Shown here one piece after another: positions 21,477 through 28,307 of a DNA stretch of 64,000 bases. Source of the stretch: Magnetospirillum aberrantis SpK (GTDB lineage: Bacteria > Pseudomonadota > Alphaproteobacteria > Rhodospirillales > Magnetospirillaceae); the NCBI RefSeq assembly GCF_011022235.1, contig NZ_JAAIYP010000037.1:1-64000 (forward strand). Reading direction: 5' to 3'. A program made the position numbers and the translations under genes. Position 1 is the stretch's first letter; every line of letters starts with the position of its first letter. The notes under the pieces are model-generated. The model saw nothing but the letters and a program-made list of their open reading frames with translations. It was not told where the DNA came from and made no database searches.

Positions 21477-21906
21477 GACGCTTCTCCATGCGGTTGGTCG
21501 GAAGGCTAAACAACACTCATTTGTGCGTCAATGATAAAATGATATTCCACTAGATTGATGGATTATAAGGTTGGCGGCGGAACCGTGCCGTATGCAAAGG
21601 CTTCGCCTGCAAATATTTGCATTTTGGCGACGGCAAAGGCATCCTCTCGCGGGATGCATAGTCCAACCCTAGCCAAAATAGGGGCGGACCAGACTTTCAA
21701 GGGTTATCGCCCCATGTCTTCTGTTACCCGGTGACAGGAGGATGGGGACGACTCGTCAGGCTTGGATATCCGTGGTGCGACACGAATCCTTGTGCTGACG
21801 ACACAGATGGACCGGCATTTGCGAAGCGGGGGCCGCCTTCGTTGATGTCTCCTTCAGGGCGGCCCGGAAATTCATGCGCAGAACAGGCGCGATGAAGGGG
21901 CGGCAC
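21477..21906. other. 430-bp gene-free stretch with AT-rich patch and two symmetric elements
   Basis: Between the esterase and the coiled-coil gene I see no convincing coding ORF. The part from about 21515 to 21640 is clearly more AT-rich than the surroundings, consistent with divergent promoters. It holds a perfect 14-bp palindrome at 21608. Near 21828-21863 GGGCCGCC pairs with GGCGGCCC to form a weak stem shortly before the coiled-coil gene start. Confidence 0.5.
21608..21621. promoter_or_regulatory. Perfect palindrome TGCAAATATTTGCA
   Basis: TGCAAATATTTGCA is a perfect 14-bp dyad in the AT-rich patch. Its TGCAAAT half-site resembles operators of the Fur/Mur family in alphaproteobacteria, but spacing differs, so the binding protein is unknown. 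It lies 286 nt from the coiled-coil gene start and 132 nt from the esterase start. Confidence 0.45.
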
Positions 21907-24801
21907 ATGGGTGAGACGACGATCGAGCGTGACGAAGCCGAGGGACAGGGAAGCGACGCCCTTGACGACGCGACGTCCAGCCAGAAGGCCGCTCCGCCGG
22001 TTCCGCCGCGTCTGAGGGCCGAACCCCTGGCCTATGTTCCCGCCAAGCCCAAGCGAGGTTTCGAACGGCTCCTGCATTTGGGGACGCTGACGGTGACCGT
22101 GTTGTGGGTCGCCGCCTGCGCCGTCTATGTGGACAACAACATCGGCTGGGACAACCTTCAGGTGTTGCAACCGCAGGAACTGGGCGGCTTGGCCGGGGCG
22201 GGGCTGTTGCCGCCGGCTTTCCTGTGGCTGGTTCTGGCATGGCTTGACCGCGGCCGGGTGATGCGCCAGGTGGCCGAGCGTCTGACCGCCGATCTGGCGC
22301 GTCTGACCTATCCCTCCGAGGATGCCGAGGACCGGGTGCGCCAAGTGTCCGACGCGCTCAGGTCCCAGACCCGCGAATTGTCCGAGGCGTCGGGGCTGGC
22401 GCTGGCCGAGGCCGAGGCGGTACGCAAGGTCCTGGCCGGTCAGGTCGAAGCCATGGGCGGTCTGGTCGGGCGTATCGGCGGCGAAGCGCGTAGCGTGCTC
22501 GACGCCTTGCGCGGCGAGGTCGACCGGCTGACCCAGGCCACCGACACCGCCACCTTGCGGGCGCGTGAGGTCGAGCACATGCTGCGCCTCCAGACCCAGG
22601 AAATGGCCTCCGTCACCGAGATTTCGGCCTTGAAGGTCCGAGAATTCGGCGAAGCTATGCATGCCCAGGCCACGCAGATCGAGGAGACCTCGACCCGTGC
22701 CGCCGAACGTGCCGAGATGCTGTCGGGCCGCGTGCGTCAGGATGCCGAGGAACTGGACCGGGTGTCGGCCCTGGCCGTCCAGCGGGCCGAACAGGTCGGC
22801 GAATTGTTCGCCGGCCAGTCCGCCCGCCTGCAACAGACCGCCGACGCGGTCACCGACCGCGCCGAACGTGCCGCCGGAACCCTTGGCGACCGCGTCGATG
22901 CTCTGGACACGCTGTTCGCCCGGCAGAACGCCAACCTCGACAGTTCCGCCGAGCGTCTGGCCGAACATACCGCTCGTATCGCTTCGTCGTTGCAGACCCA
23001 GGCCATCAGCCTGGACCAGACCACCGACCGTGTGCTGTCGCGTATCAAGATCGTCGAAGAGGCGTTGTCGGTGCAGACGCGCGAGCTGTCCTCGGCCTCG
23101 GATCAGGCCATGGGCCGCTTCCGCGAAATGGAGGAGGTGCTGGGGCGTCACGCCGACCATCTCAGCGCTACCGCCGACGAAGCCAGCGCCCAACTGGGGC
23201 AGGTGGGCGAGGTGTTCACTTCCCGCAAGGACGAGATGGACGCCGCCGTCGAGCGTGCGCTGGCCCGCGTGCGCGAGGTGGGCGAGGCGTTCCAGGGGCA
23301 GACCCGCGCCCTTTCCGCGTCGTCGGACCAGATGCAGGCCCGTGCCCGCGAGGTTTCGGAAACGCTGCGCCTTTATATCGAGGATTTGGGCAAGGGCTCG
23401 GAAAAGGCTGCCGGTCAGGCCGAAGCCATCCGCCAGAGCCTGCGCAAGCAGGCCGACGAACTGGCCGACGCCGCCAACGTGGTTTCGACCCAGTCGCGTC
23501 TGTCGGAAGCCTCGCTGAACCAGCAGTCGCGCCACCTGATGTCCTCGGCCGATCAGGTCATGGCCAAGGTCAAGACCATTGCCGACACCTTGCGCCAGAA
23601 CACCAACGACCTGATCTCGGTGTCGTCGCGTGTCGGCGTCGAGATCGAGGCGGTCGGCGAGGGGTTGCGCCAACGCACCAGCGAGGTCAGCGTCGCTTCG
23701 ACCCGCGCCATCGCCGAGACCGGCAACGTCTCCGAATTGCTGGAACGTGTGGCCGGCGGCGTCGCCGTCGCGTCCCAGGAAGCGACCGGACGGGTCAAGG
23801 ACGTGGTCGAGGTGCTGCGGCGTCAGACCGAGCAGGTGGTGGCCTCGGCCGACCAAACCCAGGCCAGCGTCGGCGCGGTGGGCGAGAAGCTGGGCGGACA
23901 GGCGTCCGCCCTGGCCCGTGTCGCCGACGATTCGTCCGAGGTGCTGAAGGCCTTCGGCCAAGCCATCGCCAAGCATGCCGCCGAGGTGGGCGAGGCCGCG
24001 CAAAGGGTGTTCCACAATTCCCAGACCGCCGGCGACGCCTTGCGCCAGATCGGTCGCGATTTCGAGGAAACCTCGAACAAGACCGCGGCCCAGGTCACGG
24101 CGGCCGGCGACATGTTGCGCGCCGGCATCCGCGACCTCACGCAATCGTCGGAACGGATCACCGCTTCGGTCCGCAACGCGGGCGATTCCTTGCGTCGTCA
24201 GGCCCAGGATTTGGAGGAATCCACCGAACGGACCGGCGCCAAGCTGGAAAGCGCGTTCGAGATGATCCGCCAGAAATCCAACGATCTGGGCATCACCGGT
24301 GATCGTCTGGCGCAACAGGCGGAAAGCATGGCCGCCACCTTCTCGCGCCAATCGGCCGATCTGGTCAACGCCTCGAAACTGGCCGAGGTTCGGGCGCAGC
24401 AACTTGAGGAACGCCGCGCCAGCGCCTCGGTCGAGCATTTCCTGCAAAACGCCGCTTTCATCGTCGAAAAGCTTCAGTCGCTGTCGGTGGACATCGCCCG
24501 CATCTTCTCGACCAACATCGACGAAAAGGCGTGGAAGGAGTTCCATGCCGGCGATCAGAGCGTGTTTGTCCGCAAAATTCTGAAGAACCTGGACAAACAC
24601 CAGATCGCCGCCATGAAGAACAAGTTCGAGGACGATGGCGAGTTCCGCGAATACGTCACCCGCTACCTGTCGGAATTCGAGGCGCTGCTCAATCAGGCCC
24701 GCCAGTCCGACTACGCCGACGTCCTGACCGGCACCTTCACGTCGTCCGAGGTCGGCAAGCTCTATCTGGTGCTGGCCCGTGCCTTGGGCCGACTGGAATA
24801 G
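21907..24801 (+). CDS. Large membrane-anchored coiled-coil protein
   Basis: A 964-residue protein with a disordered N-terminus, two membrane helices (about 58-76 and 95-114), then a predicted coiled coil from about 120 to 870 made of many similar helical blocks (patterns such as RAREVE, VGEAFQGQTRALSASSDQMQARAREVSETL, SADQVMAKVKTIADTLRQ). A globular tail (FIVEKLQSLSVDIARIFS ... YADVLTGTFTSSEVGKLYLVLARALGRLE) closes it. Layout resembles the polarity factor TipN of Caulobacter (N-terminal helices plus a long coiled coil), but homology is not shown. Start 21907 has AGGGG 7 nt upstream; ATGs at 21874 and 21892 are in frame. A terminator follows. Confidence 0.8.
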   Translation: MGETTIERDEAEGQGSDALDDATSSQKAAPPVPPRLRAEPLAYVPAKPKRGFERLLHLGTLTVTVLWVAACAVYVDNNIGWDNLQVLQPQELGGLAGAGLLPPAFLWLVLAWLDRGRVMRQVAERLTADLARLTYPSEDAEDRVRQVSDALRSQTRELSEASGLALAEAEAVRKVLAGQVEAMGGLVGRIGGEARSVLDALRGEVDRLTQATDTATLRAREVEHMLRLQTQEMASVTEISALKVREFGEAMHAQATQIEETSTRAAERAEMLSGRVRQDAEELDRVSALAVQRAEQVGELFAGQSARLQQTADAVTDRAERAAGTLGDRVDALDTLFARQNANLDSSAERLAEHTARIASSLQTQAISLDQTTDRVLSRIKIVEEALSVQTRELSSASDQAMGRFREMEEVLGRHADHLSATADEASAQLGQVGEVFTSRKDEMDAAVERALARVREVGEAFQGQTRALSASSDQMQARAREVSETLRLYIEDLGKGSEKAAGQAEAIRQSLRKQADELADAANVVSTQSRLSEASLNQQSRHLMSSADQVMAKVKTIADTLRQNTNDLISVSSRVGVEIEAVGEGLRQRTSEVSVASTRAIAETGNVSELLERVAGGVAVASQEATGRVKDVVEVLRRQTEQVVASADQTQASVGAVGEKLGGQASALARVADDSSEVLKAFGQAIAKHAAEVGEAAQRVFHNSQTAGDALRQIGRDFEETSNKTAAQVTAAGDMLRAGIRDLTQSSERITASVRNAGDSLRRQAQDLEESTERTGAKLESAFEMIRQKSNDLGITGDRLAQQAESMAATFSRQSADLVNASKLAEVRAQQLEERRASASVEHFLQNAAFIVEKLQSLSVDIARIFSTNIDEKAWKEFHAGDQSVFVRKILKNLDKHQIAAMKNKFEDDGEFREYVTRYLSEFEALLNQARQSDYADVLTGTFTSSEVGKLYLVLARALGRLE

Positions 24802-25868: not shown

Positions 25869-27254
25869 TTACCGCCCTTTGATACGGTCATAGGCGGAAA
25901 GCGCGGCCTGACGCGCGGCGGCATGGTCCACCATGGGCGGTGGATATTTCAGTCCAGCCCGCAGCAATGGTGGCGCAGCCCACGGTTTGTGGACGTATTG
26001 GTCGGGCAGGCCGGCCAGTTCCGGCAGCCAGCGCCGCACGTAATGGCCGTCTGGGTCGAATTTCTCGCCCTGGGTGACCGGATTGAAGACCCGGAAATAG
26101 GGGGCGGCGTCGGCGCCGCAACCGGCGACCCATTGCCACGACGCGGCGTTGGCGGCGACGTTGGCGTCTATCAGCGTGTCCCAAAACCAGCGCTCGCCCC
26201 ATTGCCAGGGCACCAATAGATCCTTGACCAGGAACGAGCCGACGATCATGCGCACGCGGTTGTGCATCCAGCCGGTGGCCCATAATTGCCGCATGCCGGC
26301 ATCGACGATGGGATAACCGGTGCATCCCTGTTTCCAGGCGTTGAACGCCGTCCGGTTCTCGCTCCAGGGGAAGGCGGTGAAAGCGGGGTGGAGCGGTTGT
26401 TCCTGAAGCTTGGGGAACGCGGCGACCAGGGTGTGGCTGAACTCGCGCCACCCCAGTTCCTTGAGGAAACAGTCGGCGCCGGCCGACGGTGGCCGGGTTT
26501 GGACCGCATGCCAGATCTGGCGAGGCGATATCTCGCCGAACGCCAGATGCGGCGACAGGCACGAGGTGCCATTGCAATCGGGACGGTCGCGCCGTGTTTC
26601 ATAAGTGGATAGGCCGGTATCAAGAAAATTGGTCAGCCGTTTGGCGGCGCCGGCTTCACCCGGTTGCCACGTCTCGGCCATGGTGCGCCACCATGGCTTG
26701 GCCGGCATCAGTTCCAGCGCGTCCAGGGGAAGGCTGTCCGGGACGGAAGGAGGAAGTTCGAAGCCCTGCGGCGCCGGCAGCGGCCGGGCCGGGGGCGGCG
26801 CGGCCAGGGCAGCGCGCCAGAAAGGGGTGAACACCTGGAACGCTCCGCCGGTCTTGGTCCGCACCGTTCCGGGTTCAAACAACAGATCGGCGGCGAAAGC
26901 GCGGCCTTGGCATCCCTGTTCCCCCAAACGCCGGAGCATTTCCGCTTCGCGCTCGGGTTCGCCCGGTTCCCAGCGGCGGTTCCAATGAACGGCCTGGGCA
27001 CCGACCGTCGTCGCCAATCGGGGAATTTCCGTCAGGGCGTCGCCGCGCGCCAGCACCACCCGGCCGCCGCGTGCATTCACGTCGGCGGTCAGGGCGGCCA
27101 GGGATTGGTGCAGCCACCAACGAGACGCGGCTCCCGGCCGCCAAGGCCCGGTGCCGTCAAGGACGAAGGCCAGCACCACCGGGCCATGGGCCGCGGCCAG
27201 GGCGGGGTTGTCGGACAGGCGCAAATCCTGGCGCAGCCAGACCAGAACTGTCAT
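25869..27254 (-). CDS. phrB: Deoxyribodipyrimidine photolyase
   Basis: A 461-residue light-driven DNA repair enzyme. The N-terminal photolyase domain starts MTVLVWLRQDLRLSDNPAL, and the FAD domain has KELGWREFSHTL, the GCTGYPIVDAGMRQLWATGWMHNRVRM core, DLLVPWQWGERWFWDTLIDANVAANAASWQW and FNPVTQGEKFDPDGHYVRRWLPEL. These are hallmarks of class I CPD photolyases. ATG 27254 overlaps the TGA of the PdeM-like gene (ATGA), so the two are coupled. Confidence 0.93.
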   Translation of the reverse strand: MTVLVWLRQDLRLSDNPALAAAHGPVVLAFVLDGTGPWRPGAASRWWLHQSLAALTADVNARGGRVVLARGDALTEIPRLATTVGAQAVHWNRRWEPGEPEREAEMLRRLGEQGCQGRAFAADLLFEPGTVRTKTGGAFQVFTPFWRAALAAPPPARPLPAPQGFELPPSVPDSLPLDALELMPAKPWWRTMAETWQPGEAGAAKRLTNFLDTGLSTYETRRDRPDCNGTSCLSPHLAFGEISPRQIWHAVQTRPPSAGADCFLKELGWREFSHTLVAAFPKLQEQPLHPAFTAFPWSENRTAFNAWKQGCTGYPIVDAGMRQLWATGWMHNRVRMIVGSFLVKDLLVPWQWGERWFWDTLIDANVAANAASWQWVAGCGADAAPYFRVFNPVTQGEKFDPDGHYVRRWLPELAGLPDQYVHKPWAAPPLLRAGLKYPPPMVDHAAARQAALSAYDRIKGR

Positions 27255-27901
27255 GCGGGCTCCCGTATCGGTGGAGGTGGGGGCGGTTCCAGCCGGGCGC
27301 GCGGTCGGGTGACGATGCGATTGCCGGCCAGTACCAGCGCGTTGAACGGTCGGCGGAACATCTGGGCAAAGGCCGGTGCCAGCACGTTGACGCCGTCGCG
27401 CCGTCCTCCGAAAGCCGGGATCACCATGCGCCGGCCATCGAATACGAAACACGACCACAAGGCGCCGTCCAGCCCGGCCACCGGCCACGGGCTGGCCGAT
27501 ACCTCGCCCAATGCCGACGACCCGGACAAACCGGCGGCACGAAAGGTCAGTCCCGCCGTCTTGAGCTCGATGGCGGCGGAACCGGGCAATTCCGCCGCCA
27601 AGCCCTCTCCCAGCCAATGCCAGTCATGGTCCCGGCACAGCCGGGCGATTTCGTCGGCGTCGCGTTTGGCCAGGCCGTTGCGGGACAGCAAGTTCGGTAG
27701 GGCGTCGCCCAACCACACCACCTGTGCCGGGCGGCGCTGGCGTAACACCGCGGTCAGCCGTTTCAGGGCCTCGGCCGCCAGGGCCGGAGCCTGACGCGCC
27801 GTCGGGTCGCCGATGGGGTCGGACACCGCCACCAGCCGTTCCTTGGGACAGATCAATGCCCCGGACAGGTCGGGCAACAGATGAACGCCGTTCAACAGCA
27901 T
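27251..27901 (-). CDS. PdeM-like phosphoesterase relative with lost metal site
   Basis: A 216-residue protein with the PdeM (DNA-ligase-associated metallophosphoesterase) fold signature. The opening LSGALICPKERLVAVSD, LKRLTAVLRQRRPAQVVWLGD and closing CFVFDGRRMVIPAFGGRRDGVNVLAPAFAQMF match the family. Metal ligands are missing: DLHxEKG reads DPIGDPT (28-34), GDSFHD reads GDALPN (65-70), the GNHDP block reads GEGLA, and the GHLHP block reads ASPWP (136-140). Only D28 and D66 of the usual set remain. A scaffold role in DNA repair, with phrB, is an inference. It starts 4 nt after the HIT gene stop. Confidence 0.75.
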   Translation of the reverse strand: MLLNGVHLLPDLSGALICPKERLVAVSDPIGDPTARQAPALAAEALKRLTAVLRQRRPAQVVWLGDALPNLLSRNGLAKRDADEIARLCRDHDWHWLGEGLAAELPGSAAIELKTAGLTFRAAGLSGSSALGEVSASPWPVAGLDGALWSCFVFDGRRMVIPAFGGRRDGVNVLAPAFAQMFRRPFNALVLAGNRIVTRPRARLEPPPPPPIREPA

Positions 27902-27905
27902 GGCG

Positions 27906-28307
27906 TCACGCGAACAGAGCCCGCAATTCCGCAACCTTGGCCGTCAACGTGTCGTCGTCGTACGGTTTGGTCGGCAAAACACCCCAAATCGGCCGGGGCC
28001 AGGCGGGATCGTCGGTGAAGCGGGCGATGACGTGCACGTGCAGTTGCGGCACCACGTTGCCCAGGGCGGCCACGTTCATCTTGGCCGCCTTGACGTGGTT
28101 CTGAAGCCGGCGGCTGGCATCGGCCACCTCTTCCGTCAGGGTCTGGCGGTCGGCGGGGTCCAGTTCGTGAAGTTCCGACACGCCATGACGGCGTGGAACC
28201 AGGACCACCCAAGGATAATTGGCGTCGTTGAGCAACAGCACCCGGCATAGCGGCCAGTCGGTGACGAAGGCGGTATCGGCGTCAAGACGCTCATGCAGGA
28301 CGAACAT
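27906..28307 (-). CDS. HIT domain protein
   Basis: A 133-residue histidine-triad protein. The triad is [10 protein letters not shown] near residues 93-102, and the upstream part [34 protein letters not shown] fits HIT nucleotide hydrolases that cleave AMP-linked compounds. Length is normal. The third part of the family's HxHxHxx motif is I instead of a third His, which is common in this subgroup. It is the first gene of the HIT, PdeM-like and phrB run. Confidence 0.85.

Follow-up and report, generated by a model that had tools for sequence, protein, structure and literature searches.

A probable pseudonuclease of PdeM/MPE descent, orphaned from its cluster and stripped of its metal site in Magnetospirillum and close genera

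PdeM/MPE is the nuclease of the Lhr-ligase-exonuclease cluster. Calcineurin-like phosphoesterase domains are found in the B-subunits of the eukaryotic replicative DNA polymerases (e.g. Dpb2), where they are inactive and structural. Published work places MPE near bLhr in 276 of 319 genomes (PMC8301817). The paper describing PdeM gives the motif D-X-H...GD...GNHD...H...GH-X-H, and names two Asp, one Asn and four His residues as the ligands of the two metals of the superfamily (PMC4320098). VPS29, of the retromer, is described as a rigid, metal-independent scaffold built on a phosphatase-type fold rather than a working metalloenzyme, and is reported still to bind metals weakly (PMC3101248).

In the window, by which we mean the whole 64,000-nucleotide stretch of DNA that was analysed, a descendant of the PdeM/MPE family lies in the middle of a tight run of three genes on the minus strand. 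This open reading frame (27251..27901, minus strand), which we call pdeM', starts with ATG and encodes 216 amino acids, just as a preliminary description of the locus had it in frame, strand and coordinates; its assignment as a ligand-poor PdeM/MPE descendant draws on homology, a tree, a predicted fold and a count of ligands. A HIT-domain protein of 133 aa (27906..28307, minus strand), placed by domain match and spacing, ends 4 nt upstream. Downstream lies phrB (25869..27254, minus strand), a DNA photolyase by its FAD_binding_7 and DNA_photolyase domain matches, whose start overlaps the stop of pdeM' by 4 nt (ATGA), and the coupling of these two genes that had been proposed earlier is thus present as a gene overlap.

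The PdeM ancestry claimed for this protein is borne out. It matches TIGR04123, the NCBI model for the PdeM ligase-associated endonuclease, at E 1.1e-11 and 44.6 bits, under the curated cut-off of 150 bits; all 12 scanned members of an alignment of its orthologues (A1) match the same model, and when the profile of A1 is run against the PDB it picks out MPE, the nuclease of P. putida (6nvo, 6nvp; E 1.5e-5). As a single sequence, the window protein returned one irrelevant PDB match (E 0.13). Its Pfam scan gave DUF4407 only (16.8 bits, under that model's cut-off of 31.3) and no match to PF00149 (Calcineurin-like phosphoesterase) at E 1. The proteins of G010, G007 and G027 (genomes are given as G numbers, the window's own being G000) are likewise without a PF00149 match, and the model matches the PdeM of G022 at 3.5e-7. 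A comparison of the predicted structure with PdeM, as the preliminary description had recommended, points to a retained fold. The AlphaFold2 models are confident (mean pLDDT 90.8 for the window protein and 92.6 for the 181-aa orthologue of G007), and the best PDB match of both is MPE 6nvp (E 3.3e-9 and 6.2e-10, respectively), with 6nvo also matched (E 2.9e-8 and 5.9e-9) and no entry other than those of MPE below E 0.001 for either model. The window model superposes on 6nvp with TM 0.65/0.70. Because the shortened 181-aa form still matches MPE best, the fold is predicted to survive without the catalytic loop.

The metal site has fared differently. Seven ligands (D-H-D-N-H-H-H) were counted from the motif of the PdeM paper (PMC4320098), and their positions in the window protein were read by alignment with 16 motif-carrying relatives of the same order. 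Two are kept, D28 and D66. At the remaining positions stand I, G, A, S and W, of which the G, in place of the Asn, falls within a gapped part of the alignment; the earlier claim that only two aspartates remain is therefore right for the window. Counted from the start at 27901, and all on the minus strand, the former DxH block is now D28-P29-I30 (27812..27820), the former GD block is G65-D66 (27704..27709), the former FRH ligand histidine, which was absent from the blocks listed in the preliminary description, is A122 (27536..27538), and the former GHxHP block is ASPWP at residues 136-140 (27482..27496). Among the 13 ligand-poor orthologues, window included, 14 of 91 ligand cells are kept, or 0-2 of seven in each protein: ten at the first Asp, one at the second, two at the FRH His, one at the last His and none elsewhere. 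D28 is present in 10 of the 13 (S in two, E in one) and D66 is private to the window (1/13). The 16 canonical relatives retain 111 of 112 cells, the exception being a Gln in G249. A clean replacement of all histidines, as first described, is true of the window and does not extend to the clade, where the FRH histidine survives in G009 and G010, and one GHxH histidine in G004. The stretch around the GNHD block is 28 residues long in G022 and 12-13 in 8 of the 13 orthologues, the 181-aa form among them. G027 is an intermediate, with four of the seven ligands (D, H, D and the last H).

These counts come from searching 317 genomes of the order with a profile, which matched in 30 of them: the 13 ligand-poor genomes, G027 and the 16 canonical ones. 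Within the window's genus 10 of 13 genomes, its own included, carry the ligand-poor gene, and so do G014, G061 and G073, which belong to the same family. Among the named records that have it are Magnetospirillum moscoviense BB-1 and M. sulfuroxidans J10. The gene is absent from 3 of the 12 other genomes of the genus (G001, G003 and G006, of which G003 is 79% complete) and is therefore dispensable. In a maximum-likelihood tree the 13 ligand-poor proteins fall on one side of a single branch (support 100/99). The shared losses themselves might have drawn these proteins together, but the clade stays when 33 motif columns are removed (100/97); the next branches in that tree are G027 (94/86) and then G022 (97/99). 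The ligand losses thus recur, as it had been proposed to check, within one clade, and none of its members retains the His/Asp set. The trees are unrooted, with a midpoint used for drawing only, so that the direction of loss is read from the wide occurrence of the canonical state. With that state taken as ancestral one loss explains the data, and from this we infer the direction and order of the losses, with the ligands lost once, in the common ancestor of the 13. Repeated loss across the class was considered and not seen: in a class-wide sample of 385 genomes, 133 had a match (the window's own included), and the best 29 of the other loci all carry the four motif blocks (29/29). The loci read were the best-scoring ones, so low-scoring ligand-poor copies could be missed.

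The cluster partners are also gone. No second TIGR04123 match was found in the window's genome at E 0.001, which speaks against a normal PdeM hidden elsewhere in it, and the search for ligase and Lhr partners that the preliminary description had suggested likewise found none over cut-off in this genome. Across 33 chosen genomes the ligase (TIGR04120) is over cut-off in 13 and the exonuclease (TIGR04122) in 14, all of them with a canonical PdeM; neither is over cut-off in the 13 ligand-poor genomes, in G027 or in G001, G003 and G006. Of the 16 canonical genomes, G171, G247 and G249 lack the ligase or have it under cut-off, and the same is true of the exonuclease in G247 and G249 (completeness 71% for G247 and 79% for G249). 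The Lhr model (TIGR04121) is over cut-off in 3 of 119 relatives, a set without the other 13 canonical genomes, and these three (G022, G113 and G117) are the same three that have a PdeM over cut-off; no ligand-poor genome, nor G027, has an Lhr over cut-off. Weaker TIGR04121 matches, such as any helicase would produce, occur in all 119; among the ligand-poor genomes the strongest is a partial one near a contig start in G009 (231 bits against a cut-off of 850). Frames of 1443-1626 aa in G028, G065 and G066, which have no PdeM over cut-off, score 443-473 bits with the Lhr model and are perhaps of the longer Lhr-HTH type. Since G027 has no partner over cut-off yet keeps half of the ligands, the loss of partners probably came before the full loss of ligands.

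In G022 the ligase and exonuclease share a strand, opposite to that of HIT, Lhr and PdeM, and the five genes span about 8 kb. The HIT neighbour of pdeM' therefore looks inherited, which suggests that it is a leftover of the old cluster; a HIT gene beside PdeM was not found in the three other canonical stretches examined (L105, L106 and L107). As an observation on the neighbour itself, the histidine triad is HxHxH, and the HIT protein at 27906-28307 (minus strand) carries Q-L-H-[VI]-H, with Q where the first His of the triad would stand, as do all 11 of the 11 HIT neighbours read.

The clade has acquired residues of its own. Five are fixed in all 13 orthologues and rare in the 16 canonical proteins (P29, W63 and P185, found in none, and R56 and R183, found in one each); P29 and W63 stand beside the former metal blocks, and G027 has only R183 of the five. 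H7 and A25, found in 0 or 1 of the 16 canonical proteins, are older, since they also occur in G022 and G027. Altogether 43 residues are invariant across the 12 aligned orthologues. Canonical PdeM has 58 conserved columns besides the ligands, of which 18 are lost in all 13 orthologues and 15 are kept in all, and by this measure the ligand columns are only mildly worse than other conserved columns (P 0.036, by column). The mean charge is +7.8 in the ligand-poor proteins and +3.4 in the canonical ones (Mann-Whitney P 0.002, a comparison in which relatedness and GC content are ignored).

The reading frame is open in 13 of 13 orthologues, with no internal stop. For four near pairs (G004-G007, G008-G011, G008-G012 and G000-G010, the order used throughout), the NG86 dN/dS of pdeM' is 0.222, 0.222, 0.318 and 0.263, and the lowest value among 200 neutral simulations per pair is 0.46, 0.46, 0.49 and 0.67; of 300 neutral simulations per pair, 211, 217, 269 and 289 gained a stop. 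The test is limited to near pairs because dS is saturated for most pairs. The dN/dS of HIT in the same pairs is 0.08, 0.13, 0.10 and 0.13, below that of pdeM' in all four, and that of phrB in the first three is 0.22, 0.20 and 0.18 (G010 has no phrB), with pdeM' equal to it or above it in all three. Over all 91 pairs with NG86 dS < 3, which are mostly distant and saturated, the medians are 0.544 (pdeM'), 0.368 (phrB) and 0.359 (HIT), and the YN00 medians over all pairs are 0.176, 0.104 and 0.073, respectively. Purifying selection on pdeM' is real but weaker than on its neighbours.

We consider it fairly probable that pdeM' is a lineage-specific pseudonuclease, which was orphaned, lost its metal site once and was kept as a basic scaffold or nucleic-acid binder. 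By this account, an ancestral PdeM/MPE of the Lhr-ligase-exonuclease cluster would have been left alone when the lineage of Magnetospirillum and its close genera lost the partners; the orphaned protein would then have lost its metal site in the common ancestor, by way of a partly stripped stage still seen in G027, and its fold would have stayed under purifying selection meanwhile. The ligand count suggests that the protein no longer cuts nucleic acid. It is moderately likely, on analogy, that it serves as a basic, Arg-rich scaffold for, or binder of, nucleic acid or a protein partner; by the example of VPS29, the newly fixed residues and the charge may reflect a pocket that has been filled or altered, in a protein serving as a basic scaffold. 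Of the marks of a pseudoenzyme with a scaffold role, pdeM' combines lost catalytic residues with purifying selection on the protein; enzymatic inactivity and a known binding partner would complete the set.

The closest rival to the pseudonuclease reading is that pdeM' is slowly decaying, an orphan left without a catalytic role once its partners were lost and now eroding under residual selection on folding only. This would account for the gaps in distribution within the genus and for dN/dS values above those of HIT, and the shortened GNHD stretch in eight orthologues is what relaxed constraint would give; the 18 conserved columns lost throughout the clade point the same way. It does not account for the newly fixed residues among the 43 that are invariant, and frames stay open in every orthologue though most neutral simulations gain a stop. 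Simple decay is further weakened by the dN/dS of the four near pairs, which lies below the lowest neutral value, and by the survival of the gene in lineages separated by long branches, and we regard slow decay as unlikely. The view of the preliminary description, that the protein is kept in a non-catalytic role and is not decaying, agrees with the recurring ligand loss, these dN/dS values and the MPE-like predicted fold; stops or frameshifts in relatives, which would have spoken for decay, do not occur in the 13 orthologues, though the gene is absent from three genomes of the genus. That the protein might still be a hydrolase, through an active site that has been rebuilt or works without metal, or on a different substrate, could appeal to the predicted fold and to D28, but D28 is itself replaced in three orthologues and no new invariant His/Asp/Glu set has taken the place of the lost ligands in the 13. 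The only invariant residues of these kinds (H7, D11, E133 and D155) also occur in canonical relatives (1, 9, 16 and 12 of 16), and a surviving hydrolase seems to us very improbable.

The gene neighbourhood bears on two further readings. For 10 of the 13 orthologues, as for G027, the gene directly downstream is phrB, and 9 of the 10 show the 4-nt overlap (-4 nt), which is what would be expected of a dedicated photolyase accessory, co-translated and helping light repair. Seven of the 13 have both HIT and phrB as neighbours, G002, G009 and G014 have phrB only in the stretch fetched, and G010, G061 and G073 have HIT only; the recurrent phrB linkage looked for earlier thus holds for the ten and G027 and fails in the last three, whose genomes keep pdeM' but have no photolyase match at E 0.001. 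G010 is 91% complete, but the genes on either side are present there and about 670 nt stand in the place of phrB; the G010 branch is shorter than the window's (0.17 vs 0.34). Conversely, G006 lacks pdeM' and has HIT and phrB, separated by 11 nt if GTG is the phrB start (L062, about 1760-1810). The photolyase of G001 and G003 lies in different surroundings, and the stretch fetched shows no HIT there. Since pdeM' persists in genomes without a photolyase match it does not need the photolyase, and given G006 each of the two genes is dispensable to the other. The functional tie to photolyase that had been proposed does not stand as the main reading, and a photolyase accessory is improbable. The close packing of the genes (among the 10 orthologues with HIT, a gap of 1-4 nt after it in 9 and a 10-nt overlap in the other, and the overlap into phrB) would suit a mere operon spacer that couples translation of HIT and phrB. 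That proposal is at odds with purifying selection at the protein level, with the retention of pdeM' where phrB has no match and with the direct HIT-phrB arrangement of G006, and we give it the least credence of all.

Set against the described systems, the pseudonuclease proposed here shares descent, predicted fold, the C-terminal PAFG block and a similar length with PdeM/MPE (TIGR04123; P. putida 6nvo, 6nvp), and differs from it in having two of seven metal ligands in the window (0-2 across the clade) and no ligase, exonuclease or Lhr partner over cut-off. It thus lies inside the family on homology and predicted fold and outside it on ligand set, cluster and score cut-off. A possible parallel is VPS29, a phosphoesterase-type fold that acts as a scaffold without metal catalysis (PMC3101248), although it is a eukaryotic trafficking protein. 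The polymerase B-subunits are, unlike pdeM', large multi-domain subunits, and Foldseek pairs the 181-aa form only weakly with that of human Pol alpha (4y97_A, E 0.14). A bolder version, which we put forward tentatively as something short of probable, is that a repair nuclease became a metal-free nucleic-acid-binding or protein scaffold once, via a surviving intermediate and with its own fixed residues (P29, R56, W63 and P185), and would be a bacterial counterpart of VPS29 and the polymerase B-subunits, with a new role unrelated to the old cluster. In the literature as judged by titles and abstract openings, most subscription journals lying outside it, we found no description of the ligand-poor clade.

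The stages of a stepwise passage from enzyme to non-enzyme would still be visible in living genomes: intact with partners in G022, partners gone and ligands half lost in G027, and ligands lost with the fold kept in the 13. Such an order opens to test the general question of why a genome retains a dead enzyme once the pathway it served is lost. For the ligand-poor clade, annotation by family name as "PdeM endonuclease" would mislead.

Two minor observations concern the surroundings of the gene. The window also encodes a repetitive protein of 975 aa (21874-24801, plus strand), with an open frame of 1059 aa on the opposite strand, and relatives of the repetitive protein lie near pdeM' in L044, L045 and L051. 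Finally, a contig labelled Stygiobacter sp. (L100, VBWB01000025.1) carries the Magnetospirillum-type gene, and its label is probably wrong.
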